The translations under genes were made by a program, and so were the position numbers. From positions 1 through 27,760 of the IMG/VR virus record IMGVR_UViG_3300025133_000491: a stretch of 27,760 nucleotides of DNA; one strand, written 5' to 3'. The notes under the pieces were generated by a model. It was not told the origin of the DNA and did no database searches. It worked only from the letters and a program-made list of their open reading frames with translations. This document shows positions 5,169-22,876 of this stretch, piece after piece. The DNA is from a virus. Position 1 is the stretch's first letter. Every line of letters starts with the position of its first letter.

Positions 5169-8100
5169 GGTCTAGGTAAACTGCCTATGCCTTGTGCTTG
5201 TCTTTCTCGCACTACCGCGGAAGCCGGATCAAACGGGAACATAGCCGCGTAGCGTGCTCTCTGGTTAGCGGTCTGCATTGGATTTACCGAAGGTGAAGCC
5301 TGAGATATGAGCCGTGGTGGTGGAGGCGTGATCTCTCTTTCTTCTTCCCTGTCTCGAGTAATTGCTTCTACCGGAAATGCGGGAGCTAACGGAGAATCCA
5401 ATAAAGGAGTTCTTCTAAAACCGTAATCTATGCCACGTTGTCTTTTTATTGATTCTTCTGCCGTTGCTTCTAATATTTCTTCCAGTTTTTGATAACCACC
5501 TGGTTGAAATAACTCACCCATGTAAGATATAAAAAACGTGTTAGGTGATTTCGACAATAAATCTTCAGCAACTCCAGCAGCAAATCCTGGAATTTGTATA
5601 GTGCCTCTACCTCCAGCCATAGTGCCTAATCTTGAACCTACTTGAGCACCAAAAAATCTTGTAGCAAAACGTTTTAAAACATTAGGTTTTTCTTCCGCCA
5701 TAGCCGGCAAACGTTCCATAAACATTTGTTGATTTTGCATACGCTCCAGGCCTTCGGTAACGTCTTTAATTTGCTTGTATCTAGCTTTATTGATAATGCC
5801 TTGTTTTAATAAGATATCTGCAAGTGGTTGTAAATCTTGCATCGCTGGAAAAACTTCGCCAGTTTCAAAGAAAACTTGACGAAATATTTTTGCGTCATAA
5901 AATCTAACGGGTTCCGTACCGGTTCCGTAAATTTCTTTTTTAGGCACGTAGCTTGCTTCTCGAGCAACTTGTATGAAAGAGTTTAACAAACCGTTGGCTG
6001 CAGGTTCGTAAACTTCTTTTGCCGGTACCTTTCTACCCTCATACATCACCGGTATGTTTGAGGTTTTCATGCGGTTTACTTGTTTTATGAGATTGTTTAA
6101 CTTAGTTAGTGGTTCCCTGCTTTCTAAAATTTGAGTTATTGCGTAAGTAGGGCTATCCACGCCAAGAATATCGCTCAACGCATTTTTCTCAGCTATTCTT
6201 TCTTGCATTGTGGGAATAGCCTGTTGACGATAGGCATACTGTAAATCCCCGTATTTAGCCATGTCCTTAATAGTTGCCTCAAAAGCCACGTTACTTGGAA
6301 TAAGAATTTCTTTAACGTCAATACTGTCTACTTCTTTTAAAAGTTTATCCATTGCTTTTTCGTTAGTAGCTGCTTTATTAAAGTAATTTGTTACTTCTTC
6401 TAATTTAGCAATATCACCCCTAGCTAACGCAACATTAAAATCTCGGGCCATTCTTTGCGGTTTATTGAAGACAGGAAGCACTAAAGAAGCTTTTTCATAG
6501 TCTGCCGCCGCTTTTTTGCCTCGTTCGGACATATTGTTAAATGCTTCAAGGTATTCGTCTCTATCAACTTTACGGTTAAAATAAAAAGACACATTTGGTT
6601 TATTAACTTTTTCTCTTAATCTGGAAAAAAACGTAAAGGGTGAGTTACCAAACGGGCGTTGACCAAACGCCATAGTCGCGCCGTATAAATCCCCTATTTG
6701 CATAGGATTAATAATCCCTGTTGCTTCACTAAAGTTAGACGCACCACCTGCACCAGTAAACATGTGTTCAATTCCGCTTCTTTGTAACCAGGCGCCAACG
6801 CCATACAAATCGCTTTTATTATACTTTTGTATAAACTCAAAGGTTAGTGCTTGACCCGGCTCTGCTTTGAGGTTTTTATTAAAAGATGTATAAGGAAACA
6901 AACGAGACAGTTCTTCAGGTCCAAAGTCCACAGAATAATTGTTTTTTGTGCCCCTTAAATCCAGGAATTGAGTATAATAAAAACGAGGCTCTCCTTTAAA
7001 CTTTTTAAATACATTCGGATTAGCCTCAACTAAAGTTTTGTATTCAAAAGGTTTTTGACGATCAAAACCAACTACCGTGTTTGTTGCAGGTAAACCCGCA
7101 CCACCTTTAAGGCTTTTAAGAACTTTTTGAGCTGCAACCGGATCGCTCATGTCGTCAAACAATTCTTTTATCATAGGATTTTGCTCGGCAGCAACTTCAT
7201 ATTTTTTCTTAAATCTTTCAAGTCTTGTAGTATTTACTACAAGTTGATCTGCATCAAATTCTCCGGGTAATGCTTTTTTTATGTCGCTTGGAACAAGAGT
7301 GCTCTGCGGTTTCGGTTCAATAACGCCGTTTATTAACATACCCCTAATGACCTCAACCATACTGTTCTCTATGGTTTTAGCAGAATTTTTAGAAACAGGT
7401 ATTGTTCTTTCTATAAGTTCGGTTAGAGCCGGATCATCTACATTTTTTAATGCCGTAGCTTGGTCTTCAAAAAAACTTCCAAATTTCTGTAAACCTGTGA
7501 TCCTGTTGCCTAATTCGTTGGGCCTGCCGGCAGCAAGAAGGTTTTCTATAAAAACATTAGGGTCCGAGTATTTTAATTTGTTAGCCATTTCACCGCCTAA
7601 CGTGCGAGAAAATACGTCATTTTTTGCTTTAGTAAACGTGTTTGCTATAACCAAAGCCTCTGCTGGTTCGGTCAAAGCCGGATCAGATAAATCTTTTAAA
7701 ATAGCTTTATCGAGTAGTTTTAATATCCTTTGTTCGCTACGTCCTTTATCATCTTTTGCTAATTCTCTAACTCTCTCCCCTATCAAAGAACGAATCCTAA
7801 TTGCATCACCAACCGTCATAATCTGTGCCGGAATATCAGGATCGTATTGTATTAGATCAGGAGACGTTCTAGCAGCCTTCTCTTGCTCTAGCCTTAAACG
7901 CCTACGCTCTTTAGCCGGCATATCTTTAGGGAATCCACCGACTTGTTCTCTAATTTCTCTTGGCGGTAACATACCGGACTCTATTTCATCAACTAAATTA
8001 GCTAACTCGGCATCAGTCATGCCACGAATTTCTGAAGTTTTTGATCTACTATCTATACCAGCTTTTTCTAAAACCTGCTCAAAATAATTCGCTGTCTCTA

Positions 8101-10345
8101 CTTTGGACTCATATTCGGCTAATTTAGCAGCATCATCTGGAAGCACCACGTTTTTTTCTATAGCAGCTAAAATTTCAACATGTCCAATCGTTTCCGTAGC
8201 CTCTCCAGGAAAATAACCTGCCTCTATAGCTTTCTCAATAAGACCGTCTAAACTTGTTTCACCATCCCTTCTCATTCTATGTGACGGCAACATTTCTTTT
8301 CCTATTCTTTGACCATAGGAACCAAGGCGTCGAGAAACTATCGCGTCTTCTCCCATAGCAGCAATAAGTTCCTCCATTTCACCGAAATTCGGATCAATGT
8401 CTTTAACAAGGCTTCTTATTCTATTAACAAAAGGTTCTTTACCCGGTTTTAAAACAGCAGGAATGGCTACGCTTTTTCTTTTTGCCTTAGTTGTTGCTTT
8501 AGGTGGCCTCTGAAGCGTGGGATCTGCTTTAGGAATCCTAGCCGTAATTTCCTCAATCAACTTAAGAACTTGCTTGCCTTCTTTACTTGTTATGTCACCG
8601 GGCCCCAAACGCCCCGTTAATTGAGCCATGTTTTCTACTTCGTTCAAAACTTTTATCATGTTGTTTGGTTTTAGCGCCGCGGGGTAATCTATTAATTCTG
8701 GACTAAATAAACGTTTTTCTATGTCTCTTGCTATATCGCGTAGTTTATCAATTTCTCTAACAATTATTTTACTGCCTTCACCCGGTTCTAGCGTGCCTTT
8801 AGCTTCCGCCTTGTCTAATGTTTCAGAAATTTTTCTAAACTTGTTATGTAAAAACTCACCAATAAATTGTTCTTGTTCTTTTAGATAAGACTCTGTGTGT
8901 GCCGCTATTACAGTGGGGGGTGCTTTAACTTCTATAGAATCTTGAAGCATTCTGTATCCTAAAGACACGGCTTCTTGAGTTGAATTACTTACTGAAGTTT
9001 TTAAATTGGGATCTTTAGCCATCGCTTCTGCTTGTAAACGAAATATTGGCAACATTGCTTCAAACCCTGGAGTTTTAGGATCAATTATTGTTGTTCCGGG
9101 CGTAAAAGTTTCTTCTATACCGGGTATGAGAGCACCGTACGTTTCTCTCGCTGTTTGCATGAGATTTGCTGCACCCGCTGGGGTTATGCTTGTAAAATCA
9201 ACTTCAGGACTGTGTACTGCTGGATTATAAGGAACATTCTCTGCTGCTGCTCTAGCTCTACCCGGAGCTTCTAAATTTTTTGCTAATTCGTCATAAATTT
9301 TTATTAAATCGTTTCTAGCTTTACTTTCAGCCTTGTTTTTTAAATTAAAACTAATGGATTTCAACGTTTCTACTGGGTGTCTCAAAGCTTGCCCAGCTTG
9401 TGTAGATTTAGCTGCAGCACCCGAAGCAAGTTTAGTAAGCGGGGTTATAGGGGTAAGCAAAGCACCGCCTAAAGTCGCAAAGAATGACGTTACTGCGTCC
9501 CCTGGATCAACCTGCTCGGCTATTGCGGCACCGACACCTGCACCTCCGGCAATTGGAATTTCCTGCCTTAAATAATAATCTCTTTTTGAACCGCGGGCTC
9601 TGGTTGCCATACGAGTAGCTATATCTTCTGTGCCCCGTAATGCCCGTAAACTCAACGGAACTTTTGCATCTGGATCGTATTTACGTAAGTTGGCTAATAA
9701 TTTTTTAGATCCAAAGTCTGCACTTTTGCCAACTAAGGTCGCTCCCGCATCCATGGGAATATCACCAAAAGTTGTTTTAGCTAAACCGCGACGCAAAGCC
9801 CCACTAAAAGTAAGGAAAGCACCCCCTATTTTTCCAGCTTCTCGAAACGGTTGATCTGACGGCAATACCGGTTCTTCTTCACCCAGTAAAAAATCACCTG
9901 CTGATTTAGTTACACCAACGTATTGATCGACAAGAGAAGCGGCTATAGGCAACACAACTGCACCGGCAACGCCACCAAGAAGCGTTGAGGCAGCTTTTAC
10001 GGGTAGCGTTCCAGGAACTTTAGCACCTAACTGTACCCCTCTTTTCCACCCCTCTTTCATAGTAAGTGCAGCCGGTACCGCACCTATTGCTCCGCGGGTG
10101 AAGCCCTCTGCAGTGGTAGACAAACCGCCACGATCTTCAATGCCGGTCAGTTTAGATATAATTTGTTCGTTGTTGAATCCTGCTTCGGTAGCCGCTGTGT
10201 AATCAAAATCAACTTCTTTTGCCAAACGTTGTGCTATTTGATTCTCAGCTTGCGGGCGAGTTAAACCCATACCACCTTCGTCTTGATCTTCTACAAGGTA
10301 GTTAAACGCTCCGCGTAAATCAAAATTGTCTACTTGTCTAACCAT
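5165..10345 (-). CDS. Giant probable internal virion / DNA ejection protein
   Basis: A 1726-aa protein, the largest gene here and the last of the virion operon. Its family is not recognised. It is mostly helical and charged, with two glycine/alanine-rich hydrophobic stretches near the N-terminus (about 118-140 and 265-303) that could insert into membrane. A third GA-rich segment, GRGTIQIPGFAAG, lies near the C-terminus, and the tail is proline-rich (REITPPPPRL). No lytic transglycosylase, protease or polymerase motif can be seen. Size, position after the tail genes and hydrophobic patches fit T7 gp15/gp16-like ejection proteins that form a channel across the host envelope. The ATG follows the stop of the 864-aa gene with no gap. 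Its own stop overlaps the convergent SNF2 stop. A functional role is an inference from context. Confidence 0.6.
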   Translation of the reverse strand: MVRQVDNFDLRGAFNYLVEDQDEGGMGLTRPQAENQIAQRLAKEVDFDYTAATEAGFNNEQIISKLTGIEDRGGLSTTAEGFTRGAIGAVPAALTMKEGWKRGVQLGAKVPGTLPVKAASTLLGGVAGAVVLPIAASLVDQYVGVTKSAGDFLLGEEEPVLPSDQPFREAGKIGGAFLTFSGALRRGLAKTTFGDIPMDAGATLVGKSADFGSKKLLANLRKYDPDAKVPLSLRALRGTEDIATRMATRARGSKRDYYLRQEIPIAGGAGVGAAIAEQVDPGDAVTSFFATLGGALLTPITPLTKLASGAAAKSTQAGQALRHPVETLKSISFNLKNKAESKARNDLIKIYDELAKNLEAPGRARAAAENVPYNPAVHSPEVDFTSITPAGAANLMQTARETYGALIPGIEETFTPGTTIIDPKTPGFEAMLPIFRLQAEAMAKDPNLKTSVSNSTQEAVSLGYRMLQDSIEVKAPPTVIAAHTESYLKEQEQFIGEFLHNKFRKISETLDKAEAKGTLEPGEGSKIIVREIDKLRDIARDIEKRLFSPELIDYPAALKPNNMIKVLNEVENMAQLTGRLGPGDITSKEGKQVLKLIEEITARIPKADPTLQRPPKATTKAKRKSVAIPAVLKPGKEPFVNRIRSLVKDIDPNFGEMEELIAAMGEDAIVSRRLGSYGQRIGKEMLPSHRMRRDGETSLDGLIEKAIEAGYFPGEATETIGHVEILAAIEKNVVLPDDAAKLAEYESKVETANYFEQVLEKAGIDSRSKTSEIRGMTDAELANLVDEIESGMLPPREIREQVGGFPKDMPAKERRRLRLEQEKAARTSPDLIQYDPDIPAQIMTVGDAIRIRSLIGERVRELAKDDKGRSEQRILKLLDKAILKDLSDPALTEPAEALVIANTFTKAKNDVFSRTLGGEMANKLKYSDPNVFIENLLAAGRPNELGNRITGLQKFGSFFEDQATALKNVDDPALTELIERTIPVSKNSAKTIENSMVEVIRGMLINGVIEPKPQSTLVPSDIKKALPGEFDADQLVVNTTRLERFKKKYEVAAEQNPMIKELFDDMSDPVAAQKVLKSLKGGAGLPATNTVVGFDRQKPFEYKTLVEANPNVFKKFKGEPRFYYTQFLDLRGTKNNYSVDFGPEELSRLFPYTSFNKNLKAEPGQALTFEFIQKYNKSDLYGVGAWLQRSGIEHMFTGAGGASNFSEATGIINPMQIGDLYGATMAFGQRPFGNSPFTFFSRLREKVNKPNVSFYFNRKVDRDEYLEAFNNMSERGKKAAADYEKASLVLPVFNKPQRMARDFNVALARGDIAKLEEVTNYFNKAATNEKAMDKLLKEVDSIDVKEILIPSNVAFEATIKDMAKYGDLQYAYRQQAIPTMQERIAEKNALSDILGVDSPTYAITQILESREPLTKLNNLIKQVNRMKTSNIPVMYEGRKVPAKEVYEPAANGLLNSFIQVAREASYVPKKEIYGTGTEPVRFYDAKIFRQVFFETGEVFPAMQDLQPLADILLKQGIINKARYKQIKDVTEGLERMQNQQMFMERLPAMAEEKPNVLKRFATRFFGAQVGSRLGTMAGGRGTIQIPGFAAGVAEDLLSKSPNTFFISYMGELFQPGGYQKLEEILEATAEESIKRQRGIDYGFRRTPLLDSPLAPAFPVEAITRDREEEREITPPPPRLISQASPSVNPMQTANQRARYAAMFPFDPASAVVRERQAQGIGSLPRP

Positions 10346-12940
10346 TTAATTAAAAAACTGATCTAATTGTTTAGAGACAGCTTCTGTGTCTCCCCCAAGT
10401 TTTCTTGAATAAGCATTAGCTAGGTTATCGTACTCGCTTCTTATACTCTTTAATGAAGCCAAATCTTTTTTAGCTTTGTTTCTTTCGGTACGAGTTAGTC
10501 CCGGGCCCTGCATAACAGACTGTTGTTCACGAATAGCAAAATCCATAACGCGACTTGACGCTTTAAATTGTGCTAGTGCTTCGCTGTCGTTGTAGAAAAA
10601 TTGAGCCGCAGGTACTTGCAGTTTAGCCAAACGTTCCTGTAGTTCTTTGTTTTCTCTACCCGCTAATGAACCCAATGCCCGAGTAAGTGCGATTTGAGTA
10701 AAACTGTCTAAAGTTCTAATGGCTTCTTCTGTTTCTTCAAAAGGTGCGTTTTCCATAAATATGGCTGTTGCTACTTTATTTACGGCTTGCTTCATAAAAG
10801 CATCAGAACCCGTTCCTTTGGTAATATCTATTCCCTCTAAACCAGATATGATTGGTTCGTCGAACGTGATTGGTTGTTCTGCTTCCGGCGGCCTTGCCAT
10901 ATAGCGTCCGGTGGTAGGTTCAAAAAGACCTTTACTGGGATCTGGTCTAAACGGATCACCACCGTTAGCCATGTGTTTTACCTCACCGCCTTGTGCATAC
11001 TCCGGAGAAAAAGCGGTAAATCCACCTTGTTGCCTCGCTTCAATCGCCGATCTTATATTAGGTGGCATACTTGCCGATATTTGTAATCCAGTATTTGGAT
11101 CCCAAGAAGTTTTAAATTTTTGAGATAAGGCGTACTCATAGGCAGGCATTGGCGCCCCTAAACCGTAAGCTATTGAAGCTTCACCGCTCATTAGCATCTC
11201 GTTCATTTGATTAGCATTAATCCCTGATCCCCTGTTTCTACTCATTGCAATTTGGCTATCTATAGCCATGCCCATTATAGTAGACTGCTCGTAGAAATTT
11301 TGTTTTCGTACATTTAAGCTATAGTTACTATTCTGTAGGAAAGCATCAACTCTACCCATATCCATTCCCGCTTCGCCTGCTCTAATTCGTAAGTCAGCCT
11401 CTGCAACTTTTCTTGCTTCTGCCGCTTGGTAGTAATTTTCTGCTTCCGTATCAAAGAATGTTTCTGCAAAAGGTATTAGACCTTTCCACCCAACTACTTT
11501 AGTTTTCGGACTACGTGCTATGAAATCGTCCCATTCTGCTTGTTTTAATTCAGCAAATTCTTGTGCAATACCAAGGTGTCCTTCCGCAACGGCTGCTGCC
11601 GAATCTTTATACGGTTTCAAGAATGCTTGCGCATCGTTTTGCATTAACAATGCGTGCTGGTTGTTAGCATTATCACGGGCCATACTAAGGCTGTTTTGAA
11701 GTCTTAATGTATCGCCATCATAGATGAACGCTTGTTTCATTCTTTCTAAAGCGTCTTTTTGTTTTACATCAACTAAGGCAGTTTCTAGCTCATATCTTCT
11801 TTCTGTGATTTTATTTTGTCTATTAACATCTTCATCGGATTGTGCATCTATAAACTCACGTTCGGTTTGTCTAAGTGCCTCTTCGAGCGCAGATTGCTGA
11901 TTCATTAAACTAGACTGTTTATCCGCCTCAAACTGCATACCTTGAGCTCTAAAGTTTATGTCAGCGCCCATGCCTCTTTCATCAACAACAGCTTTTACTC
12001 GCGCTTTTTCTATATCTCCGGCCATCTGTAAAGCAGCTAACTTAGCGCCTTGTTCTTGTTGTCTCTGAGCCGCGACCCGTTCTCCGATCTGCTGTGGTAA
12101 ACCAGAAGCGGCTGCGGCTAGTTGTGAGCCCATCGCTCTTTTAGTCATAGGTTGCCCGGTGCGTGGGTCTATACCGCCAGCAAAATTTAAACCGGCTTGT
12201 GCAATGTCAAACATAATTTGCGATTTAGTCAGGTCTTTTTGTTGTTGCGGGTCTATTATTCCCTGATAAAGGGGAAGCACCTCTTGATAAGTTTGCGGCA
12301 AACGACTTTTTAATTGATCAATACCTACTCTCAAATCAGGTCCAGGAATTGCTGTAAGATTATTAGGAAGACTTAAAGAACTTGTAAACATAGGAGTTAC
12401 CGCGCCACCAGGGTTAAAGTGTTGCACAATACCGCCATTAGCAAACTGTTGTACTGGAACTTCTTGATTAGCCGCCATTAGACCACCAAGACCTTGACCC
12501 ATTTGTGTCGGCTCACCCGCTTCAGTTACCATATCAATTTCACCGGCTAGTTTCTGCATAAGCTCACCTATACCTGAATCAACGTTACCTTCTTCAGTCA
12601 TCATTATAACGGGCTGTACCATAGCCAATACAGACTCTGGTGTTTTTTCAGCGTCGTCTTCACCAACATATTCAGATAGTTCAAGATAACGTTCTTCTAA
12701 GGGCACCGTATTGCCACGTAAAGAATCAATAACCTCTTTAAAGTTCTCAGCGTCATCCAGTCCCTGAGTAACACCTTGTACGTATTCCTGTCCTACTCTT
12801 TCCATATCTCTAGCGGTGCCTTGCTCTACGGCAGCAATCATTCCTACCGGATCGGCTTGAGGTAAAGCGGCAACGCCCGCAGGCATCATTTCTGCCGGTC
12901 CACCAGCTTGTCTAAATAAAGGTCTTTGCAATGTGTTCAT
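10346..12940 (-). CDS. Large virion-associated protein with GG motifs (putative internal virion protein)
   Basis: An 864-aa protein whose N-terminus (MNTLQRPLFRQAGGPAEMMP, then PESVLAMVQPVIMMTEEG) I recall as recurrent in marine phage contigs, always among tail or internal-virion genes. Two tandem motifs, FANGGIV (166-172) and FNPGGAV (175-181), precede a central part rich in Gln, Ala and Glu with long predicted helices (about 290-420). A second motif pair, YAQGGEV and MANGGDP, falls near residues 645-660 and introduces a separate C-terminal helical domain. The protein thus looks bipartite, with the GG motifs as linkers. Its ATG shares one base with the upstream TAA (TAATG), implying coupled translation. 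No enzymatic motif is seen. An internal core or ejection protein is the likeliest role. Confidence 0.6.
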   Translation of the reverse strand: MNTLQRPLFRQAGGPAEMMPAGVAALPQADPVGMIAAVEQGTARDMERVGQEYVQGVTQGLDDAENFKEVIDSLRGNTVPLEERYLELSEYVGEDDAEKTPESVLAMVQPVIMMTEEGNVDSGIGELMQKLAGEIDMVTEAGEPTQMGQGLGGLMAANQEVPVQQFANGGIVQHFNPGGAVTPMFTSSLSLPNNLTAIPGPDLRVGIDQLKSRLPQTYQEVLPLYQGIIDPQQQKDLTKSQIMFDIAQAGLNFAGGIDPRTGQPMTKRAMGSQLAAAASGLPQQIGERVAAQRQQEQGAKLAALQMAGDIEKARVKAVVDERGMGADINFRAQGMQFEADKQSSLMNQQSALEEALRQTEREFIDAQSDEDVNRQNKITERRYELETALVDVKQKDALERMKQAFIYDGDTLRLQNSLSMARDNANNQHALLMQNDAQAFLKPYKDSAAAVAEGHLGIAQEFAELKQAEWDDFIARSPKTKVVGWKGLIPFAETFFDTEAENYYQAAEARKVAEADLRIRAGEAGMDMGRVDAFLQNSNYSLNVRKQNFYEQSTIMGMAIDSQIAMSRNRGSGINANQMNEMLMSGEASIAYGLGAPMPAYEYALSQKFKTSWDPNTGLQISASMPPNIRSAIEARQQGGFTAFSPEYAQGGEVKHMANGGDPFRPDPSKGLFEPTTGRYMARPPEAEQPITFDEPIISGLEGIDITKGTGSDAFMKQAVNKVATAIFMENAPFEETEEAIRTLDSFTQIALTRALGSLAGRENKELQERLAKLQVPAAQFFYNDSEALAQFKASSRVMDFAIREQQSVMQGPGLTRTERNKAKKDLASLKSIRSEYDNLANAYSRKLGGDTEAVSKQLDQFFN

Positions 12941-14127
12941 TAAAATAACCCCGCGTATTTAGCTCCGGATAAAGCACCTAATCCCGCTACACCTAATCCC
13001 GCTATTTGTTGGAAAGGAGAAGCAGCCGGGGCCGCGGGACTGCTAAGTATTGAGTATTGACTGCTTGGAGCACCTTTATATATGTCAGACAAGAAACCCA
13101 GTTGCTGATAAGGCATCATCTGTGCTTGTTGCTCGGACATACGTTGTGCTTCTAGTTGTCTTTGTAAGTTATCTCGATAAACTCCGCCTAACTGCATCAT
13201 GGCGTTAACATCAGCCAAATTCATTTGTTGTTCAAGACCGCCCATCTGTGCTTGTTGTAACCCTAAGTCACCTAGTCTTCCGCCCAATACACCGGCTTGT
13301 TGACTAAGCGATCCAAGACCTTGACCTAGCGCACCTCTAGCTTGACCTAAACCGGCTAGTTGTTGCACATCAGCTTGACCTAATTGACCAAACTGTAATC
13401 CGAGTTGACCTATGCCTTGACCTGCCGCCATACGTCTTGCTTGTTGTTGTTCAAATGCTTGTTGAGCCGCTTGCCGTGCTTGTTGATAACCTTGTGAACG
13501 CAATTGAGCACCAATACGTGACTGTTCGCCCAATACATTACGACCTATTTCAGTTTCTTGTAAAGCTCCGCGAGAACCACCGAAAGCACCTGCTGCGGAG
13601 GCCCTAGCTCTAGCTTGATTTAATTGCTGTTCGCCTAATCTGCTTACATCTCGTTGTTGCGCTGCAATTACTTCTTCGGCATACGGGTCATAAAAATCAG
13701 AAATAAAAGACGGATCAAAACGTCCGGTAGCTCCTCTTAAACCGGCAATACCTTCGTCTCTAAATTGATACGGGACGCCTCTATTCATTGCGGCTAACGC
13801 CTGCGCTTGATCTATTGTGCCAATACCGGCTTGAGTAGAACCATAGCCTTGTTGCAATATCGGCATTGCTGTATCAGCTATAGCGCCAATACCGGCTTGA
13901 GTAGAACCAAAGCCCGCACTTAAATAAGGACTATACCCGCCTATCCCGGCACGCAATACGTTACCTGCACCTACTTCCATACCGCTTAAACCAGCTACTT
14001 TATAGGCTGGCGGTAAATATCCGGCTCGATCTTGAACTAAATTTCTAGCACTTTCTAGTAAAGCCAGTTTCTGCGCTTCTATTTCCGGTGCTTCTCTTAC
14101 AATTTGTGTGGTTGTTTCTGTTGCCAT
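12940..14127 (-). CDS. Gln/Ala/Gly-rich virion protein (putative internal virion protein)
   Basis: A 395-aa protein with strongly biased composition. An internal duplication, GFGSTQAGIGAI then GYGSTQAGIGTI, recurs 22 residues apart near residues 73-106. The middle (about 150-320) is rich in Gln, Ala, Arg and Gly with predicted helices (QQARQAAQQAFEQQQARR). The C-terminus is small and hydrophobic (IAGLGVAGLGALSGAKYAGLF-like). The section DPYAEEVIAAQQRDVSRLGEQQ is familiar from marine phage structural proteins. Biased, helical, Ala/Gln-rich sequence is typical of proteins packed inside the capsid and ejected with DNA, for example P22 gp7/gp20 and T7 gp14. It overlaps both neighbours by one base (TAATG at each junction), so it is translationally coupled in a four-gene block. 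Function is inferred from composition and position. Confidence 0.6.
   Translation of the reverse strand: MATETTTQIVREAPEIEAQKLALLESARNLVQDRAGYLPPAYKVAGLSGMEVGAGNVLRAGIGGYSPYLSAGFGSTQAGIGAIADTAMPILQQGYGSTQAGIGTIDQAQALAAMNRGVPYQFRDEGIAGLRGATGRFDPSFISDFYDPYAEEVIAAQQRDVSRLGEQQLNQARARASAAGAFGGSRGALQETEIGRNVLGEQSRIGAQLRSQGYQQARQAAQQAFEQQQARRMAAGQGIGQLGLQFGQLGQADVQQLAGLGQARGALGQGLGSLSQQAGVLGGRLGDLGLQQAQMGGLEQQMNLADVNAMMQLGGVYRDNLQRQLEAQRMSEQQAQMMPYQQLGFLSDIYKGAPSSQYSILSSPAAPAASPFQQIAGLGVAGLGALSGAKYAGLF
13819..13909 (-). repeat. 25-bp direct repeat inside the 395-aa gene
   Basis: Positions 13819-13843 and 13885-13909 are identical over 25 bp, 66 bp (22 codons) apart and in frame. They encode the GSTQAGIG duplication. 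Identity at synonymous positions suggests a recent duplication or gene conversion. Confidence 0.8.
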
Positions 14128-15914
14128 TATACTGCCGCTCTCTCAAATTTTCTCATTAAACCGTACATCGTTTGCATACCATTATTTCGGCTACCGTTGC
14201 CAGCGCCTTTTACAGCTTTTGCCGTCATAACAAACTCGCCGTCAGATAGCATTGCAGGAACGTCGTCAGAAGTTTCTGTTCCGGGGCCCGCGATCCCACC
14301 ATTACGTCTTGGGAATTGCGAAGGGTCTACATCGCCACCTGAAGCGTAACCTACACCGTATCCTGGGACGGTTATATCCGATAAAGTATAAGTTGGCGAA
14401 ATCGTTGGATAACGAATCATATATTTTTCAGGATCTTCTGCTAATAAATCTACGCCTGTTTTTAATATTTCTGTTTCGTCTTCTTCTTCTTCGGGTGCAT
14501 CAAAAAATCCAGTTCCTGCCGCTATACCAGAAGCCAATGCGGCTGAAGGTCCAAAGCGAGCTAATCGGCTAGGACCTGCCGCGGCTCTTGCTGCGTTATA
14601 ACCTGCTTCTGTAGCTTGAATACCTAGATTACCCATTTTTTGTGCGTAAGCTTGTCCAGCCGCATCTTGTGCAGCTTTTACAGTCTGCGGGTCTTTACCA
14701 CCCCTAAACATAAAGTCTCCAGTTCTTTCTAAGAAACTACGTGGGTCTGCCGGCACTCGATTTAGTGCTGCGATTGTATCTGCGGTAACATTTGGATCTA
14801 TTGTTGGAACGTTTAAGCCCGGAATTTCAGCCGGAGTAAAAGGCACTGTAGTTGTACCAGTTCCTGATCTTAATCTAGCTAAGTAAGCTTCTCCGGTAGC
14901 ATCAGTGGTTAAAGGTTGCTGGACATCTGGACCAAAAGGCTGTTGCCCGGTAGTTCTTGGGCTCATGTCTGCCCTTTGTACCGGTCCGCCGTCATAAGGC
15001 ATACCAGTAGCCGGATCAATCGGTCTTGTATATTCTAAAGTTTGTCTTACTGGTGAATCCACTATTTGAGCTCGACCAGTGTTTATGTCAGGTATCTTGG
15101 GCAAGTTTTCATTAAGTAGCAAAGCTTTTTGTTGATCTGGCGTTCGTATAGTCCTTGTCGGAGCGCCAAAGTAAGTTCCGCCCGCTTCTCTTGCTCTTGC
15201 CGGACTTGCAAACTGCTTAAAGCGTTCGCCTATGCCGCCTGCTGCACTGCCCACGCTACTCTTAAAGCCTGCTGCAAAGGTATTACCGGCACGTAACGAC
15301 TGAATACCACCAGTTACTCCTGTAAACATGCCACCCAACGCACCTGCGGTAAGTCCCGCTTTAAGTGCATCTTTGAGATCACCACCAGCGGCTAGTGTGC
15401 CTATACCAGAACCCGTAGCGGCTCCGAATATTGGTCCGAGGGGCGTCATTGCTAAAGCGATAGGCAAGACAATGGGGAGTGCTTTCTTAACAACTTTTAC
15501 TACTTTTTTAACTAATTTCTTAACACCTTTAAAAAGTTTTTTAAGAAAAAACTCAGGTTGTCCGGTAACAGGGTTTAATGAATTAAGTTCACTACCCACA
15601 ACATAACGTTCTGGTTCTAAACCCATTTTTTCCATTTGACTAAAAAGATTACTTTTAAGACGAGGGTTTGCTTCCAATACTTCTAAAGGTATGACAGTTT
15701 CACCCTCTGCTGCGTGAACCATGAACTCGTCTTCGTAACGACCGTATTCCGCTAATCTATCCGCAATATGTCTAACTTGTGCTATGCCTGTATGTGGAAT
15801 GTCATCGGTAGCCCAATCGCCTTCAGTAGCATTAAGAAACGCGGCAATCCCGCCATCAGGAACCATTAAGGTTTCTTGTGGTTGGGAATCATACGTTGCT
15901 GCTGCTAAAGACAT
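14127..15914 (-). CDS. Virion protein with cationic amphipathic helix and SDGEFV terminal motif
   Basis: A 595-aa protein. The N-terminal domain (1-120) includes DDIPHTG and DEFMVHAAEGETVIP (63-77). Residues 122-145 form a strikingly Lys/Val/Leu helix (KKLFKGVKKLVKKVVK) that runs straight into a hydrophobic stretch (146-160) and a Gly/Ala-rich region to about 200, like a membrane-active peptide. The middle is Pro/Thr-rich. The C-terminus (523-595) has YASGGDV, RRNGGIA, then SDDVPAMLSDGEFVMTAKAV. This motif recurs in tail, tape-measure-like and internal proteins of many phages. An ejection or membrane-penetration role is plausible. A promoter-like sequence lies just upstream and AAAGGA serves as ribosome site. 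It overlaps the downstream gene by one base. Function is inferred; the motif family is from memory. Confidence 0.65.
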   Translation of the reverse strand: MSLAAATYDSQPQETLMVPDGGIAAFLNATEGDWATDDIPHTGIAQVRHIADRLAEYGRYEDEFMVHAAEGETVIPLEVLEANPRLKSNLFSQMEKMGLEPERYVVGSELNSLNPVTGQPEFFLKKLFKGVKKLVKKVVKVVKKALPIVLPIALAMTPLGPIFGAATGSGIGTLAAGGDLKDALKAGLTAGALGGMFTGVTGGIQSLRAGNTFAAGFKSSVGSAAGGIGERFKQFASPARAREAGGTYFGAPTRTIRTPDQQKALLLNENLPKIPDINTGRAQIVDSPVRQTLEYTRPIDPATGMPYDGGPVQRADMSPRTTGQQPFGPDVQQPLTTDATGEAYLARLRSGTGTTTVPFTPAEIPGLNVPTIDPNVTADTIAALNRVPADPRSFLERTGDFMFRGGKDPQTVKAAQDAAGQAYAQKMGNLGIQATEAGYNAARAAAGPSRLARFGPSAALASGIAAGTGFFDAPEEEEDETEILKTGVDLLAEDPEKYMIRYPTISPTYTLSDITVPGYGVGYASGGDVDPSQFPRRNGGIAGPGTETSDDVPAMLSDGEFVMTAKAVKGAGNGSRNNGMQTMYGLMRKFERAAV

Positions 15915-15964: not shown

Positions 15965-16260
15965 GTAATGCTTACCGTTACGCTACCTAATGTTGCGGTA
16001 GCATCTAAACCCGCAGGACAAGGCACGTTTAGACGTACAATCTTTACATGCCCATTTTGCGCAAAAAGTGCGCCAGTTTCAAGTCCTGTATCGTTATTTG
16101 CTAAATTTGTTAGTGTAAAATTAGTTGCTCGTCCTTCTCCCGGATTAATCACTTGTTGTTGAAACACAGAGAAAGCTCTAACTACTTCTGCCATATAATT
16201 ACTATCATATTCTTCAGGTGGCATGGGAAAAGCGGGTTGTGTCAGATTTCTACTAGCCAT
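15961..16260 (-). CDS. Small phage structural-region protein, unknown function
   Basis: A 99-aa protein. I chose the ATG at 16260 (MASRNLTQPAF), which shares one base with the TAA of the tail nozzle gene and has GGAG 6 nt upstream. A longer reading would overlap the preceding gene by 51 bp. The first half is helical (YDSNYMAEVVRAFSVFQQQV) and the second half is beta-rich (ATNFTLTNL, GHVKIVRLNV, ATLGSVTVSIT), like a small tail or baseplate-type accessory protein. I recognise similar small proteins in marine phages beside the same tail protein, but no function is known to me. Confidence 0.75.
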   Translation of the reverse strand: MASRNLTQPAFPMPPEEYDSNYMAEVVRAFSVFQQQVINPGEGRATNFTLTNLANNDTGLETGALFAQNGHVKIVRLNVPCPAGLDATATLGSVTVSIT

Positions 16261-18155
16261 TATCTTCTCCCATCCGGACGTATATCTACTCTTGGGGATC
16301 CCAAACGCCACTGAACTTCGGCTCCATCACTACCTACTCGCAAAGCAAAAGAACGCCCGCGCAACCTTACGTGTACTTGATTTGTAAATTTTTCTACGGT
16401 AGTTGTCGTTGCTGCCGCAGATTGAGTCACGGTACTTGCGTCTGAGTTGTCGTAGGCACCGCCTGGAAAATTTCTAGTTTTAAGCGTAAACGAAGCACTT
16501 GGAGCATCAGAATCAGACCCATCAAAAGTAACATCAGGTATTAACCGCCGGATAAACACATACTTATCCCCGTCGCCTATGTCTAGCTGACTGGATTCTA
16601 CATAAGACGTTATCGCTGATGCGGGCGAGGTGCTGCCGTCATCTAGTCCATTTTCGTGATTATACAAATAGTTATCTGCTCCGGCGGCTATTGGGTTATT
16701 ATTAATACCCTTATCCATCCAAGCCGTACGGGCCATTGTACCGTAATACCACGCCCGTTCTAAGTAGTTATAAACAACATAACGATCAACCGTATCGGAA
16801 TCAGACGAAGGATAAAACCACCAAACTTCGTTAAAAGAGGAGTTTAAAGCGGCAAAAACTTTCTCTTTTTGAAACAAATTAAAGTCGTTAAAAACATAAG
16901 CTTTTACAGTGCAAGGAAGTTTTTGTATGCGTCCGTCGAAAACATAAAAATCTTCAAGTCCCATCCAAAACACATAATCATCCACTGCTTTTGCTGCTAA
17001 AGGGCCCATTATTGTGATGTTTTCAGAAATTAAGTTAATACCGTAAGTAAATGGCGGCCCTAAAAACTGCATAGCATGTAAAGAAACATCTGTAAAAACA
17101 AGGACTTGCTGCCTTGTTTCAACGGCAGTGACAATTTCCGAACCTGAACCCAACCTTAAACTACCCGCCGTATTAGTTGCAGTAGAGTTCCAAGTAATAG
17201 CTGTTTCTTGGTGACTAAATCTTATTAATAATGGATCCTGCGTACCAACATCGTCTTCTGGATCGCAACCAAAAGCAATAACATGACGGTCACGGTCTGA
17301 AACTAATATCTGTTTAGCTACGGTTGGTGCAGAGTCAGCGTCAGATACTGCAGATAGGGCAATAGCTCGGTTAAAGGCGTTAGAGTATGCGCTGGTATCC
17401 CAGTAATAAACACCACCATCCCGAACGTTTATTATTAAATCTTCTCCGAAGTTATCGTGCGTCCACAGTCTTAATATATTGGCAATATCTGTTAAAGAAG
17501 CTGCAGAATCCCAAGTGCCTCTACTCCATGTTCCTGCACCCCAACCTGTCCCGAGAACCGTGCTGTCTAAGCCAACGTTAATTTGATATGCTCCCACAAC
17601 AGAGCCACCGCCGTTACCGCTGTCGCTGCCATTAGCAGTAACAGTATCTCCATCCGTATCTTTAGCGGTGAAAGTGAATGTATTTGCTGTAGGAACGGTA
17701 ACTATTTGATATTCTTGGTTTAAAACGTCGGCCGTAACGAGGCCACCTAAAGTAGCGGCGCCTGAAATTGTTACAAAATCACCTGCTACAGCGCCGTGTG
17801 ACGAATCAGTTGCAGTTATAGTAGAAGAACCATTAGTTGCAGAAAATGTTACATCACCCGCCGAAGTAGTAACTCTTAACGGAGTTACATCGTGGTAACT
17901 ACCACCTTCATCTATGTAATACTTTAAGTGTGTTCCTACGCCCGTGCGTAAAGTTCCAGCTAAATCAACCCAACTATGTAAAGAACGGCATGTCCCTAAA
18001 AAAGTGTTACTGCTTTTTTTAGTCCAACCACCTATTTTTTCTGGAACTCCAGACCTAAATCGTATCTTTTCGCAATCGAACCAACCACCTTCATTCGTAT
18101 ACGATGTGGTTTCTCGATTAATTCCAGGTTTAAATTGTAATTTTTGTAAAGGCAT
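16260..18155 (-). CDS. Tail nozzle / packaged-DNA stabilisation protein (P22 gp10 / T7 gp12-like)
   Basis: A 631-aa protein opening MPLQKLQFKPGINRE followed by EGGWFDCEKIRFRSGVPEKIGGW (23-45), a start shared with the P22 gp10-type stabilisation family as I remember it from marine podoviruses. Later blocks also fit a beta-propeller tail protein, for example LRLWTHDNFGEDLIINVRDGGVYYWD, ILVSDRDRHVIAFGCD and YVVYNYLERAWYYG. These proteins form the tail nozzle that closes the portal channel after packaging. Residues about 97-190 are a Thr/Ser/Gly-rich insert (FSATNGSSTITATDSSHG) with an Ig-like or surface-domain look, absent from the core family. The gene precedes the internal virion block and has AAGGTGA as ribosome site. 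Family call fairly secure; the assignment to P22 versus T7 type is less so. Confidence 0.75.
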   Translation of the reverse strand: MPLQKLQFKPGINRETTSYTNEGGWFDCEKIRFRSGVPEKIGGWTKKSSNTFLGTCRSLHSWVDLAGTLRTGVGTHLKYYIDEGGSYHDVTPLRVTTSAGDVTFSATNGSSTITATDSSHGAVAGDFVTISGAATLGGLVTADVLNQEYQIVTVPTANTFTFTAKDTDGDTVTANGSDSGNGGGSVVGAYQINVGLDSTVLGTGWGAGTWSRGTWDSAASLTDIANILRLWTHDNFGEDLIINVRDGGVYYWDTSAYSNAFNRAIALSAVSDADSAPTVAKQILVSDRDRHVIAFGCDPEDDVGTQDPLLIRFSHQETAITWNSTATNTAGSLRLGSGSEIVTAVETRQQVLVFTDVSLHAMQFLGPPFTYGINLISENITIMGPLAAKAVDDYVFWMGLEDFYVFDGRIQKLPCTVKAYVFNDFNLFQKEKVFAALNSSFNEVWWFYPSSDSDTVDRYVVYNYLERAWYYGTMARTAWMDKGINNNPIAAGADNYLYNHENGLDDGSTSPASAITSYVESSQLDIGDGDKYVFIRRLIPDVTFDGSDSDAPSASFTLKTRNFPGGAYDNSDASTVTQSAAATTTTVEKFTNQVHVRLRGRSFALRVGSDGAEVQWRLGSPRVDIRPDGRR

Positions 18156-18521: not shown

Positions 18522-18950
18522 TTATTTCTTAATTAAACTCGGATCAAATAGACCCTTATCTATCAATTTCTGCCTATTAACTAAATGTTCTTGTTCAACA
18601 TCGTCTTTACTTTGACCAAAATAGGCTACGGCATGGTTTTCTTCTACCATGTTTTGATTAATGTTTTGATCGTTTACCCAAACTTCAGCTAAAACACGGC
18701 CAAATTTACCCCGGGAGTCTTTCAGCTTTGTTTTCAAAACAACTTTTCCACCGGCAATTGCGTTTTTTAGAAAGTCTTTTGAAAGCAAACCTCTTACTTT
18801 TTCATCTTTGTCCCTGGTGCGTGATTCAGGCGTATCGATTCCATACAAGCGTACCCTAGACTTGTATAGTACAGAAAAACCTAGATCTAAAGTTACGTCT
18901 ATGGTATCGCCGTCTACTACTCTATTTACCGTGCAATTATATTCATACAT
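18522..18950 (-). CDS. Staphylococcal nuclease-like (SNase) thermonuclease
   Basis: A 142-aa protein. I use the ATG at 18950 (MYEYNCTVN): it shares one base with the preceding TAA and has GGAGG about 7 nt upstream, while an ATG 8 codons earlier would overlap that gene. All SNase landmarks are present: VVDGDTIDV (D13, D15), the catalytic Arg and Asp-Thr-Glu in RLYGIDTPE (R34, D39, T40, E42), and the second Arg in GRVLAEVW (R85). It should hydrolyse DNA or RNA phosphodiesters in a Ca2+-dependent way. There is no signal peptide, so it acts in the cytoplasm or within the virion. It may degrade host DNA for nucleotides or resolve DNA during morphogenesis. The role is inferred; the enzyme family is secure. 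Confidence 0.93.
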   Translation of the reverse strand: MYEYNCTVNRVVDGDTIDVTLDLGFSVLYKSRVRLYGIDTPESRTRDKDEKVRGLLSKDFLKNAIAGGKVVLKTKLKDSRGKFGRVLAEVWVNDQNINQNMVEENHAVAYFGQSKDDVEQEHLVNRQKLIDKGLFDPSLIKK

Positions 18951-19636
18951 TATGCCGCCTCCTGTACTTCCCAACAGTTGAGATTAGCAGCGACTGTTCT
19001 TCTTTCGCCTTTACCCTGAAATGGGTAAACCATGTGTTGTAACCAGCTAGGGAACATATATAGTTTCCCTACCTCTGGTTTTACTACAAAGCTTGGCGAA
19101 GGCTTTAAAATTTCTGTATCAGTAACGTGTCCTTGTCCATACTGAAAAGCTAAATACCCATCAGGATGTCCACTGGCATTGTATAAACTATACTCAGATG
19201 TACCAGCAGTGGGTTGATCTAATATTTGCTGTGGTACTTTTGTCCAAGTAGTGCAAGAAATACCCATTAGTGTTTTAGTGCCATGACTGTGTATTGGATT
19301 ATAATCTCTTTCAAAACTATGTACTGACCAGAGTTCATCCATTTCTACTCGCTTGTTAGTTTTATATCTAGCTCCAGTAGCCTGTGCATATAAGTTAATG
19401 TAATGTGCGCCTAATCCACAAAGCATATTAGAAAATTCTTCTATTTTCTTATCTTGGTGATCCATTAGTAATTGCTGACCTTTTTGTATCTGTCCAACAA
19501 GGGTGTGTGCTAATGACTTGCGTTTCTTTTTCTTTAAATAAGCATCTAAGTAAGTATTTAGATTAGTCACCATTTCTTCTGGAACATCATGTTCCATAAC
19601 AAACACACTAGGCATCGCATGAAATCTTGTTTCCAT
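18950..19636 (-). CDS. 2-oxoglutarate/Fe(II)-dependent oxygenase
   Basis: A 228-aa protein matching the phage-type 2OG-Fe(II)_Oxy_5 pattern. The first metal-binding stretch is NPIHSHG (H116, H118), followed by GISCTTW. Near the end come GKLYMFPSWLQHMVYPF (H201) and GERRTVAANL, with R212/R213 expected to bind the 2OG carboxylate. These enzymes hydroxylate protein, nucleotide or small-molecule substrates, and similar genes are frequent in marine phages with unknown substrate. The first motif is H-x-H rather than the common H-x-D. I believe that variant is normal for this subfamily, so the enzyme is probably active. It overlaps both neighbours by one base (TAATG), placing it in an operon with the tail fibre and nuclease. 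Confidence 0.85.
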   Translation of the reverse strand: METRFHAMPSVFVMEHDVPEEMVTNLNTYLDAYLKKKKRKSLAHTLVGQIQKGQQLLMDHQDKKIEEFSNMLCGLGAHYINLYAQATGARYKTNKRVEMDELWSVHSFERDYNPIHSHGTKTLMGISCTTWTKVPQQILDQPTAGTSEYSLYNASGHPDGYLAFQYGQGHVTDTEILKPSPSFVVKPEVGKLYMFPSWLQHMVYPFQGKGERRTVAANLNCWEVQEAA

Positions 19637-19984: not shown

Positions 19985-22876
19985 TCATTCTAATGCTGCT
20001 ACTCTTGCCGTAAGAGCATCAATTTTATCGTCTATCTCTTGTATTGCTTTAACTATTGGAGTCACCATTGCTTCTAAAGAAACACCTTGAACACCACTGC
20101 TTAGTTTATTCCAACCGCCAAAATTAGTTATTCCTGCGTTATCCATAGCTGTTTTAACTTCTTGAGCTATAAAGCCATGAAAAGTCGTGGTACTGTCCAT
20201 ATGATTTTTACTAGCATCGTAATGCTTTGCTAATTCTGAATCACTGGAATCTATCTCTGTTGATGCTTTCCAATTAAAAGTTACAGGTCGAAGAGCATTA
20301 ATAAAGCTAAGACCCAAAGTATTTGTAGCAATATTCTTTTTTAACCTTTCGTCTGAACTTCTAGTCCAAGTTGCATTACTAGTAAATCCGTTATAAACGA
20401 TATTAGAAACCTTACCGAAAGCAACATAGTTGCCGTCAATTCCTATATCATGTCCAATATTAATAGCATACCCATCGGTATTGCCGGGATCAGTTCCATG
20501 TCCAATGCAGATATTATAGCTAGATGTAGTAATAGCATCGCCAGCGTTCATTCCTAAACAAGTATTTTCTACACCAGTTGTGATATTTTCACCAGCTTGC
20601 ATACCGATTGCTGTATTAGAATGTCCAGTTGTATTATCCTTTAAAGCTCCTTCTCCAACTGCGGTGTTATATGATGCAGTTGTGTTAGCTACTAAAGCAC
20701 TTGTACCAACAGCGGTATTTGAAGATCCGGTTGTATTTGCCTTCGCTGCCTGATAACCAACTGCAACATTACTTGAAGCCGTTGTATTTTCTTTTAGAGT
20801 TTCATATCCGAGTCCAGTATTGTTCCCGCCAGTTGTCGTTTTTGTAAGGGCTTCTCTACCGATTGCCGTATTGTTTGATCCTGTTGACAGTTCATCTAAA
20901 GACGCAGAACCAACTGCCGTATTTCTAGCTCCTGTAGTACAAGCTCCTAAAGCATAATAACCCATTGCTGTGTTTTCGTCTGATGTGGTGCTTAATCTTA
21001 AACATTCATAACCAACAGCAGTATTATAATCTCCGGTAGTAACTGTCCTTAAAGCACCTGATCCGACTGCTGTATTCTCAGTTCCAGTTGTGTTTGAAAG
21101 TAAAGAATTTTTGCCGACTGCTGTATTGTTAGCTGCTAAGTTTGCTGCCATAGCATAATAACCGATTGCGGTGTTGTCTGCTCCTGTCACATTCTCTGCC
21201 AAAGAAGCTGCACCGACTGCGGTGTTTCCTGTTGCAGTTGTATTTTTATACATAGAACGTCTACCAACTGCGACATTCAAATCAGCCGTAGTATTGGCAA
21301 TCATTGCTTCGTAACCGACAGCCGTGTTATAACCACCAGTATTATTAGCTTCCAGCGCAAATGCTCCAACTGCTGTGTTTTGTTCATCTGTATTTGCTTC
21401 CAGAGCATCTCTACCTATAGCCGTATTTCCAGCACCTGTTATATTCGTTTTCAATGATTGTAAGCCAATAGCCGTATTGTTATTGGCTGTGGTATTAGCT
21501 ACTAAGGCAGATTTGCCAACTGCAACATTATTGCCGCCTGTGGTATTTGCTTTTAACGTATCTAGTCCAAACGCTGTGTTATCATCCGCAGTTGTATTAG
21601 CTGATAAAGCATCAGCTCCCATTGCCGTGTTGCCAGCTCCCGTTGTGTTTGCGCCTAACGCATTATCTCCAAGTGCGGAATTGTTATTTGCGGTGGTGTT
21701 TGCATCAAGAGCAGCAAAACCAACCGCAGTATTGTTTGTTCCTGTGGTGTTAGCTGTTAAAGCACCAGAGCCGACTGCGGTGTTATCTGCTGCGGTATTA
21801 GCTTTAAGCGCATCTAAACCGACTGCTGTATTGTTTGCTTGGGTTGTCGTAGCAAGTAAAGAATCTGGACCTATAGCAATATTCCCTGATCCAGTAGTTA
21901 TTGCTCCACCAGCATTATCGCCTATTACAGTTGTGTTATTTGCTGTTGTTACTGCATCTCCTGCATTAAATCCAACTGCGGTGTTATTTGTTCCAGAAGT
22001 ATTGGCAGCTAATGCTGCTTGTCCGATTGCGGTGTTGTCTGCTGCTGTGGTTGCTGCTGCTAATGCACCAGAACCTAAAACTGTATTATTTCCGCCAGTA
22101 GTCAAAGCTCCACCAGCATTATCACCAATTAATGTGTTGTCAGAACCTGTAGTAACGGCATCACCAGCAGCATATCCAACGGCTGTATTGTCTGTACCAG
22201 AACTATTCGCGGTCAAAGCTAGTGTTCCTACCGCAGTATTATCTGCTGCTGTGGTTGCTACCAGTAAAGCTCCAGAGCCTACTGCCACGTTGTTTGAGCC
22301 AGTAGTTAAAGCACCAGCAGCATTATCGCCAACTGCGGTATTGTCTGAGCCAGTTGTTGCTGCATCAAGTGAAGCTTCACCTATTGCTACGTTATCTGTT
22401 CCTGTCGTTAAGGCTGTACCTAAGTTACCAGAACCTAGTCCTACGTTACCTGTACCACCTGTTAGGTCTAGTACGTCAGTAACTGCTGCTCCTGCACCAG
22501 CACCATCAGCAACAAGCATCTTAATACTTCCATTTGGTATTACGACATTTGCGCCTGTACCTTGAGAAATGGTTACTGTGTCACCGGCACTATTTTGTAT
22601 AACCCAGCATTTATTAACTGTATTAGGAGCTAATGTAACAGTACAGGCCTGTGATAAAGAACCTGTAAGAGTCATAGACATTGCCCTAGCCGCGTCACTT
22701 GCTCCATCGGCTATTGTTATTGTTGCCGTAGAAGCATCGGAAAGGGCTTCTGAACCGCCACCAAATGCTTCAGCAATTAGCTCTAAATTTGTATTAGTAG
22801 TTGCACCCCATGTTCCGGATTGCTCACCCGTAGCAATCTCCTCTAATCTTAAATCGTTTACGTATGTACTTGCCAT
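19985..22876 (-). CDS. Tail fibre/spike protein with 17-residue repeats and S74 autochaperone domain
   Basis: A 963-aa protein in three parts. Residues 1-140 form the virion-attachment end (MASTYVNDLRLEEIATGE, GTWGATTNTNLELI). Residues 162-787 hold about 37 tandem 17-residue units of consensus NTAVGxxALxANTTGxx, expected to fold as a trimeric beta-roll like YadA/haemagglutinin heads. The C-terminus (about 840-963) is a peptidase S74 intramolecular chaperone. Its SDERLKKNI motif places the catalytic Ser at 841 and Lys at 846, five residues apart as in endosialidase CIMCD, followed by GFIAQEV and a terminal coiled coil (IQEIDDKIDALTARVAALE). The chaperone trimerises the fibre and then cleaves itself off before S841. 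The mature fibre binds the host receptor. Confidence in the architecture is high; the receptor is unknown. Confidence 0.94.
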   Translation of the reverse strand: MASTYVNDLRLEEIATGEQSGTWGATTNTNLELIAEAFGGGSEALSDASTATITIADGASDAARAMSMTLTGSLSQACTVTLAPNTVNKCWVIQNSAGDTVTISQGTGANVVIPNGSIKMLVADGAGAGAAVTDVLDLTGGTGNVGLGSGNLGTALTTGTDNVAIGEASLDAATTGSDNTAVGDNAAGALTTGSNNVAVGSGALLVATTAADNTAVGTLALTANSSGTDNTAVGYAAGDAVTTGSDNTLIGDNAGGALTTGGNNTVLGSGALAAATTAADNTAIGQAALAANTSGTNNTAVGFNAGDAVTTANNTTVIGDNAGGAITTGSGNIAIGPDSLLATTTQANNTAVGLDALKANTAADNTAVGSGALTANTTGTNNTAVGFAALDANTTANNNSALGDNALGANTTGAGNTAMGADALSANTTADDNTAFGLDTLKANTTGGNNVAVGKSALVANTTANNNTAIGLQSLKTNITGAGNTAIGRDALEANTDEQNTAVGAFALEANNTGGYNTAVGYEAMIANTTADLNVAVGRRSMYKNTTATGNTAVGAASLAENVTGADNTAIGYYAMAANLAANNTAVGKNSLLSNTTGTENTAVGSGALRTVTTGDYNTAVGYECLRLSTTSDENTAMGYYALGACTTGARNTAVGSASLDELSTGSNNTAIGREALTKTTTGGNNTGLGYETLKENTTASSNVAVGYQAAKANTTGSSNTAVGTSALVANTTASYNTAVGEGALKDNTTGHSNTAIGMQAGENITTGVENTCLGMNAGDAITTSSYNICIGHGTDPGNTDGYAINIGHDIGIDGNYVAFGKVSNIVYNGFTSNATWTRSSDERLKKNIATNTLGLSFINALRPVTFNWKASTEIDSSDSELAKHYDASKNHMDSTTTFHGFIAQEVKTAMDNAGITNFGGWNKLSSGVQGVSLEAMVTPIVKAIQEIDDKIDALTARVAALE
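20516..22393 (-). repeat. About 37 tandem 51-bp (17-aa) repeats in the tail fibre gene
   Basis: The repeat block covers residues 162-787. Three units (the 12th, 20th and 25th) are one residue short. DNA copies have diverged strongly at third positions, so the array is old rather than freshly expanded. The first nine units show a higher-order period of four units. The period keeps a phantom reading frame open on the plus strand. Confidence 0.9.

Follow-up and report, generated by a model that had tools for sequence, protein, structure and literature searches.

The window analysed here, a 27,760-nucleotide stretch comprising positions 1 to 27,760 of the IMG/VR virus record IMGVR_UViG_3300025133_000491, carries on its minus strand the gene for a 595-aa protein (14127–15914), within which positions 15435–15551 encode residues 122–160. 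Gene order marks this protein as a probable virion component belonging to an ejection cassette. Upstream lies the gene for a P22 gp10-like stabilization protein (16260–18155, minus strand), which matches PHROG 3287, 'virion structural protein', at an E-value of 1.9e-72 and holds the family position that is called stabilization protein in the DSL-LC04 record and gp10 in P22. Downstream, likewise on the minus strand, follow a 395-aa neighbour (12940–14127) matching PHROG 4287, 'DNA ejection protein' (E 2.2e-6), an 864-aa cassette protein (10346–12940) homologous to DSL-LC04 WJZ48113, and a 1726-aa protein (5165–10345) with a hydrophobic peak at residues 121–139 (2.07), which is a distant relative of the large last protein of the cassette, annotated as 'DNA transfer protein' in DSL-LC04; a divergent helicase gene comes next. 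The 595-aa gene is therefore placed as podoviral ejection or pilot protein genes are, in an ejection operon downstream of tail or head-closure genes, and the ejection context assumed in the original prediction, which had been made from sequence alone, was borne out by this cassette.

The gene neighbourhood is well established. Between the 595-aa gene and the divergent helicase, genes are arranged in a similar order in HTVC027P, 023Pt_psg01 and DSL-LC04, small extra genes aside; among these three phages, an annotated gp10-like neighbour is confined to DSL-LC04, where two genes intervene before the homologue. The accessible text of PMC9599517 records that HTVC023P-type phages, including HTVC027P, were assigned to the Podoviridae by their describers. 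Of the testable IMG/VR loci, 71 of 71 have a gp10-like homologue upstream. Downstream, 49 of 55 have an 864-aa-like homologue, and a 1726-aa-like one was detected in 13 of 55, a count to be read with the 5-kb flanks in mind, which often end too early.

Other features of the window lie outside this gene. An endonuclease-like protein is encoded in the tail gene region (18522–18974, minus strand; PHROG 452, E 2.9e-39). A 963-aa tail-fibre-like protein (19985–22876, minus strand) is built from many GNNTAVGxxALxxNTT repeats, which are mirrored by a long open frame on the opposite strand (21375–22565, plus strand); its C terminus presumably resembles an S74-type chaperone. Recurrent Gly-Gly motifs, for example FANGGIVQHFNPGG and AGGYVAGGYALG, occur in several proteins of the virion region (10346–12940 and 26066–26533, both minus strand), and motifs resembling these are also present in pelagiphage proteins.

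Within the 595-aa protein, we distinguished a series of parts, all encoded on the minus strand. Residues 1–120 (15555–15914) form a conserved N-terminal domain with the signature GI..A.YGR.xD...VHA..GE.VIP ... NPxTG, which runs into the lead-in motif NPVTGQPEFF (residues 114–123, 15546–15575). An amphipathic, Lys-rich helix (residues 122–145, 15480–15551) is followed by a hydrophobic, Pro-containing segment (residues 145–163, 15426–15482) and by predicted Gly/Ala-rich, small-residue helices (residues 160–208, 15291–15437) that hold the motif GGxLKDALK, here GGDLKDALK. A variable and probably unstructured linker (residues 236–470, 14505–15209), with low pLDDT over much of its length, yet with helices predicted at residues 394–467, separates this region from a C-terminal motif, GPGTETSDDVPAMLSDGEFVMTAKAV (within residues 536–572, 14199–14309). 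In its general form, GPGTxTSDxIPAMLSDGEFVxTAKAV, this last motif recurs in tape measure proteins of siphophages and may serve generally as a signal for docking in the virion interior. The motif is also found in HTVC115P gp72, encoded between the portal and capsid genes. A reading of the N-terminal domain and the C-terminal motif as an internal repeat was rejected (8 aligned residues, E 2.0).

Charge, hydrophobic moment and hydropathy confirmed the originally predicted arrangement of a Lys-rich amphipathic helix at residues 122–145, joined to a hydrophobic and then a Gly/Ala-rich stretch, and the pattern itself can be regarded as established. Residues 122–145 have a net charge of +10. Their Eisenberg moment at 100 degrees is 0.72, a value matched by 1 of 10,000 shuffles of the same residues, and it drops to 0.46 at 90 degrees and to 0.31 at 110 degrees, so that the pattern repeats with the period of an alpha helix. 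Over 19-residue windows, the hydropathy of the protein is highest (Kyte-Doolittle 1.87) at residues 145–163, just after the helix. Eight window proteins were scored, and of these the 595-aa protein has the highest 24-residue net charge and is the only one to combine a net charge of +8 with a moment above 0.8 in one 18-residue window. An antisense open reading frame across this region (15328–15606, plus strand) was rejected as a gene: with the antisense frame of fewest stops taken in each case and frames matched only approximately, it is stop-free in just 2 of 23 usable homologues, 24 having been tried and one (L073) having no usable stretch.

An IMG/VR scan with the whole 595-aa protein yielded 324 stretches encoding a relative, from which 80 loci were kept. 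Because one search pattern, QPEFFLKK, lies inside the segment, the scan was repeated with residues 1–120 only, which gave 294 relatives and again 80 loci kept. All 80 loci from this second scan carry NP[VI]TGQPEF and the helix, the latter with an 18-residue net charge of +6 to +8 and a moment of 0.61–0.86. When both scans were pooled (53 distinct segments), only three distances were found between the Phe of the lead-in and the first Pro of the hydrophobic part, namely 25 (n=24), 22 (n=21) and 18 residues (n=8); the differences between them (3, 4 and 7 residues) correspond roughly to whole helical turns, although few events may underlie them. The genome collection contains 1 relative (L082, 8001–8540); its contig is assigned to a Verrucomicrobia metagenome-assembled genome and is possibly phage DNA that was mis-binned.

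The conservation of the pattern, and the selection acting on it, are likewise established. Over 49 related pairs among 49 sequences (identity 0.75–0.97, pS ≤0.65; pairs not independent), pairwise dN/dS was 0.053 for the helix (residues 121–146), 0.049 for the hydrophobic and Gly-rich part, 0.059 for residues 177–235, 0.078 for the N-terminal domain and 0.047 for the C-terminal motif (residues 536–595), compared with 0.349 for the linker. Together with the shuffles, these values ruled out chance or a low-complexity artefact as the origin of the segment. For alignment, the 74 non-identical proteins of the 80 loci were combined with that of the window into 75 rows, from which three alignments were drawn (A1, 56; A2, 42; A3, 24). 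Across 19 divergent sequences, G58, R59, D62, H67, E72 and G98 in the N-terminal domain, N114, P115, T117, G118 and E121 around the lead-in, and G177 and G178 in the Gly-rich part are invariant. One relative, L003, is 20 residues short in the Gly-rich part; it is not among these 19 and was excluded from A1–A3, so that the residues G170, G177 and K185, 'invariant' in those alignments, fail for it. In this relative, and also in L154, the 20 missing residues include the otherwise conserved GGxxKDALK, by natural deletion or assembly error.

To avoid selecting by the 595-aa protein itself, we gathered remote relatives by scanning with the next gene and taking the open reading frame upstream of each match. 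The best 80 of 100 relatives represented 79 distinct loci, 77 of which have an upstream frame of at least 120 aa, with proteins reaching 1368 aa. Three of these 77 proteins were excluded as shorter than 300 aa, and three more (L164, L176 and L182) have no lead-in and start at the hydrophobic Gly/Ala part; the remaining 71 gave 52 distinct segments, widening of the lead-in pattern having raised the number of distinct segments from 50 to 52 and lowered that of proteins without the motif from six to three. The stretch before the hydrophobic peak is amphipathic in all 52 (shuffle p<0.05; 46 of them at p<0.01), and the peak reaches at least 1.5 in 49, being weaker in L184 (1.43), L192 (1.36) and L196 (1.46); the 52 segments are related to one another, so these counts do not amount to independent tests. 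With charge times moment as the score, and under the narrower lead-in pattern, 37 of 50 distinct segments passed at p<0.05. Profile comparison with the DSL-LC04 type indicated that the two subfamilies are homologous over the N-terminal domain and the module (hhalign probability 99.8, match 38–206).

Homologues thus retain the amphipathicity and the hydrophobic segment of the pattern that had been predicted, but not its charge. Net charge is positive in 48 of the 52 distinct segments and zero or negative in four, which are still amphipathic, so that 'Lys-rich, antimicrobial-like' does not stand as a conserved property, and the family lacks the conserved net positive charge by which a cationic antimicrobial peptide would be recognised. 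In the relatives, moreover, the segment lies within a single long open frame. The extreme case is a natural acidic helix (L201, 2532–3248), with a net charge of −10 over 42 residues, in which both the amphipathic pattern and the hydrophobic segment are retained.

Two AlphaFold2 models of the protein, both of low confidence (pTM 0.26 and 0.21), place helices at residues 122–141 or 123–155, at 160–175 and within 180–208. Neither gives a confident tertiary fold, and their confidence is too low for burial of the helix in a soluble fold to be read either way. Fold searches against BFVD and the PDB gave no usable match, as low-confidence models would lead one to expect. Profile searches of the PDB returned only an unrelated best match for the 595-aa family (E 0.16) and none for two neighbour proteins of the cassette.

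Searches for known families were similarly sparse. Pfam returned nothing for the 595-aa protein; the best Pfam match over 19 divergent members was to DUF637 (E 2.5e-4; 5 of 19 at E 0.1), and membership was rejected after a rescan of 8 of the 19 at E 0.05 gave one match of 18.0 bits, with a cut-off of 26.6, which we treated as compositional. One module (L157, 3319–4035, residues 120–207) has a sub-threshold match to DUF637, 'possible hemagglutinin', which is probably compositional. At E 0.01, 20 of 42 members matched PHROG 790, 'endolysin', and at E 0.001, 5 of 19 did; when six phage records were searched for this PHROG, the single match fell in the Lys-rich stretch of HTVC027P gp82. Another family, PHROG 1047 ('tail associated lysin'), was discarded as unspecific, since it was absent from seven phage records and yet matched in 6 of 14 control genomes. 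The family profile A5 matched three of nine phage records, DSL-LC04 at 6.2e-30 and, weakly, 023Pt_psg01 (0.0019) and P-SSM2 (0.0047), with T7 and P22 unmatched among the nine. In a collection of 50,697 phage records, tblastn found no match to the module of the window itself, and the DSL-LC04 module and a near-consensus module matched only DSL-LC04, in a search whose low-complexity filter may hide Lys-rich stretches. In the accessible literature on ejection proteins with amphipathic helices and on HTVC027P- or DSL-LC04-type phages, from which most subscription journals and bioRxiv fall outside coverage, we found no description of this family. The module is real and conserved, and belongs to a protein family of which the literature searched gave no account, while its general kind is already known.

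A conserved helix and hydrophobic Gly-rich stretch encoded among genes for presumed injected proteins probably form part of a device that delivers the genome across the envelope. On balance, we therefore favour the reading, drawn from sequence, that the 595-aa protein belongs to the virion, as a member of the genome-ejection cassette, and that its module enters a membrane of the host envelope. The phage would be short-tailed and related to the HTVC027P (HTVC023P-type) and DSL-LC04 groups. Residues 114–208 would act as one module, made of the NPxTGxPEF lead-in, the amphipathic helix, the hydrophobic segment and the Gly/Ala-rich helices. In the particle, the hydrophobic face of the helix may be covered by other core proteins or by further copies of the 595-aa protein; on ejection, the module would lie on, and then insert into, a host-envelope membrane, where several copies could line or anchor a DNA channel; the tape-measure-like C-terminal motif would dock the protein in the virion. 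We infer each of these properties, from presence in the virion through ejection, membrane insertion and oligomerisation to docking. The non-conserved charge, the three relatives without a lead-in (L164, L176 and L182), the weaker hydrophobic peaks of L184, L192 and L196, the large size, the lack of a match to T7, to P22 or to solved structures and the low confidence of the structure models count against this explanation.

The main rival reading, which we consider rather unlikely, is that the module is an assembly interface, in which the helix and hydrophobic stretch pack the internal core or seat it on the portal and never meet a membrane, the tape-measure-like C-terminal motif then being, at the same low likelihood, a second docking point. 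The occurrence of the C-terminal motif in tape measure proteins and in the HTVC115P protein would fit such a role, as would the ability of the charge to change sign while the amphipathic pattern persists, as for a packing helix, and so would mature T7, in which the helices of gp14 bind the portal barrel and gp15 (accessible text of PMC11784390). Against it, 49 of 52 distinct relatives have a 19-residue hydrophobic peak of 1.5 or more, which is membrane-like; assembly and membrane roles are also not mutually exclusive, T7 gp14 holding both according to the same source. A basic DNA-binding helix, with a Lys face that would retain the packaged DNA or steer it as it is ejected, would account for the net charge of +10 over 24 residues and for the 48 of 52 distinct relatives that are net positive, but it would need neither a continuous hydrophobic face nor an adjoining hydrophobic segment, and natural acidic and neutral versions exist; we regard it as quite improbable.

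Whether the protein could instead be the tape measure protein of a long-tailed phage, with the segment as its membrane-entering part, is suggested by the PHROG and tblastn matches of its C terminus and by the annotation of the DSL-LC04 homologue as such. These matches are confined to the C-terminal part (about residues 485–591), however, and the cassette contains gp10-like proteins, joined in DSL-LC04 by adaptor proteins. The DSL-LC04 genome has no annotated tail tube or tail terminator gene, and no tail-tube gene is found among the window proteins with PHROG matches, many proteins being unannotated; HTVC023P-type phages are, in addition, called Podoviridae in the accessible text of PMC9599517, making this alternative very improbable. 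A part in host lysis, as a holin-like element or a released, free antimicrobial peptide, is scarcely credible: the segment does look like a cationic lytic peptide, a cecropin-like peptide was matched by profile without significance (E 0.64) and a PHROG labelled endolysin was matched, but the segment lies inside a conserved 595-aa protein, in a structural cassette, and its charge is not conserved.

A doubtful extension is that the family represents a hybrid class, combining an N-terminal module for podoviral membrane entry with a C-terminal signal for tape-measure docking. Selection on the entry module would then act on its amphipathicity and helical register, not on its charge, Lys-rich and Asp-rich versions being equivalent in different hosts. 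Such a class, if true, would join two machines that are thought separate. The passage of DNA from short-tailed phages across two membranes is understood in few model phages, and the present family is common in environmental contigs, as the 324 IMG/VR stretches attest. As a compact, conserved module with natural positively and negatively charged versions, it makes possible a direct test of what a membrane-entry helix requires, and proteins now labelled hypothetical or tape measure gain a working annotation.

Among named phages, the closest counterparts are DSL-LC04 WJZ48115, HTVC027P gp82 and 023Pt_psg01 URG13127, which are alike in gene position, in the succession from Lys-rich amphipathic helix to hydrophobic, Gly-rich stretch and in the C-terminal motif. 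DSL-LC04 WJZ48115 additionally has the N-terminal domain and the NPxTG lead-in, whereas the two pelagiphage proteins lack both, begin at or near the helix and have a weaker hydrophobic peak (1.43, and below 1.4).

Comparison with the ejection proteins of T7 and P22 revealed a likeness of placement. According to the accessible text of PMC8954989, T7 gp14, which forms the outer-membrane pore, and P22 gp7 are encoded by the first small gene of the ejection operon, are followed by larger ejection proteins and have predicted membrane helices. The gp14-like group, as described there, spans 181–240 aa, compared with 595 aa here, and its members mostly have four or five predicted membrane helices, compared with one clear hydrophobic peak; the 595-aa protein has one 19-residue Kyte-Doolittle peak above 1.4, and the same measure gives none in T7 gp14, so this count is not comparable with the predictor used in that work. 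Neither T7 gp14 nor P22 gp7 has a cationic amphipathic window as strong as that of the 595-aa protein. Since the family profile showed no sequence match to T7 gp14, gp15 or gp16 or to P22 gp14, gp7, gp20 or gp16 (hhalign probability 0.4 and 2.8 against T7 gp14 and P22 gp7, respectively), we do not file the protein as a gp14 or gp7 homologue.

Of the Schitoviridae outer-membrane ejection proteins N4 gp52 and DEV gp73, the former is the nearest functional parallel found in print. N4 gp52 is likewise a small cassette protein with an amphipathic helix and a hydrophobic part, from which a channel was predicted and for which channel activity in bilayers is reported in the accessible text of PMC12633501. 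By that description, on which the likeness rests, it has 150 aa, with hydrophobic residues 1–68 preceding a helix at 69–131; both elements are present in the 595-aa protein in the reverse order. The original prediction had named the inner membrane as the target and perforation as a possible effect, and nothing was found in support of either. Where a small ejection protein is a pore former, the best-studied analogues work at the outer membrane, and the parallels with N4 gp52 and T7 gp14 favour that membrane no less than the inner one.
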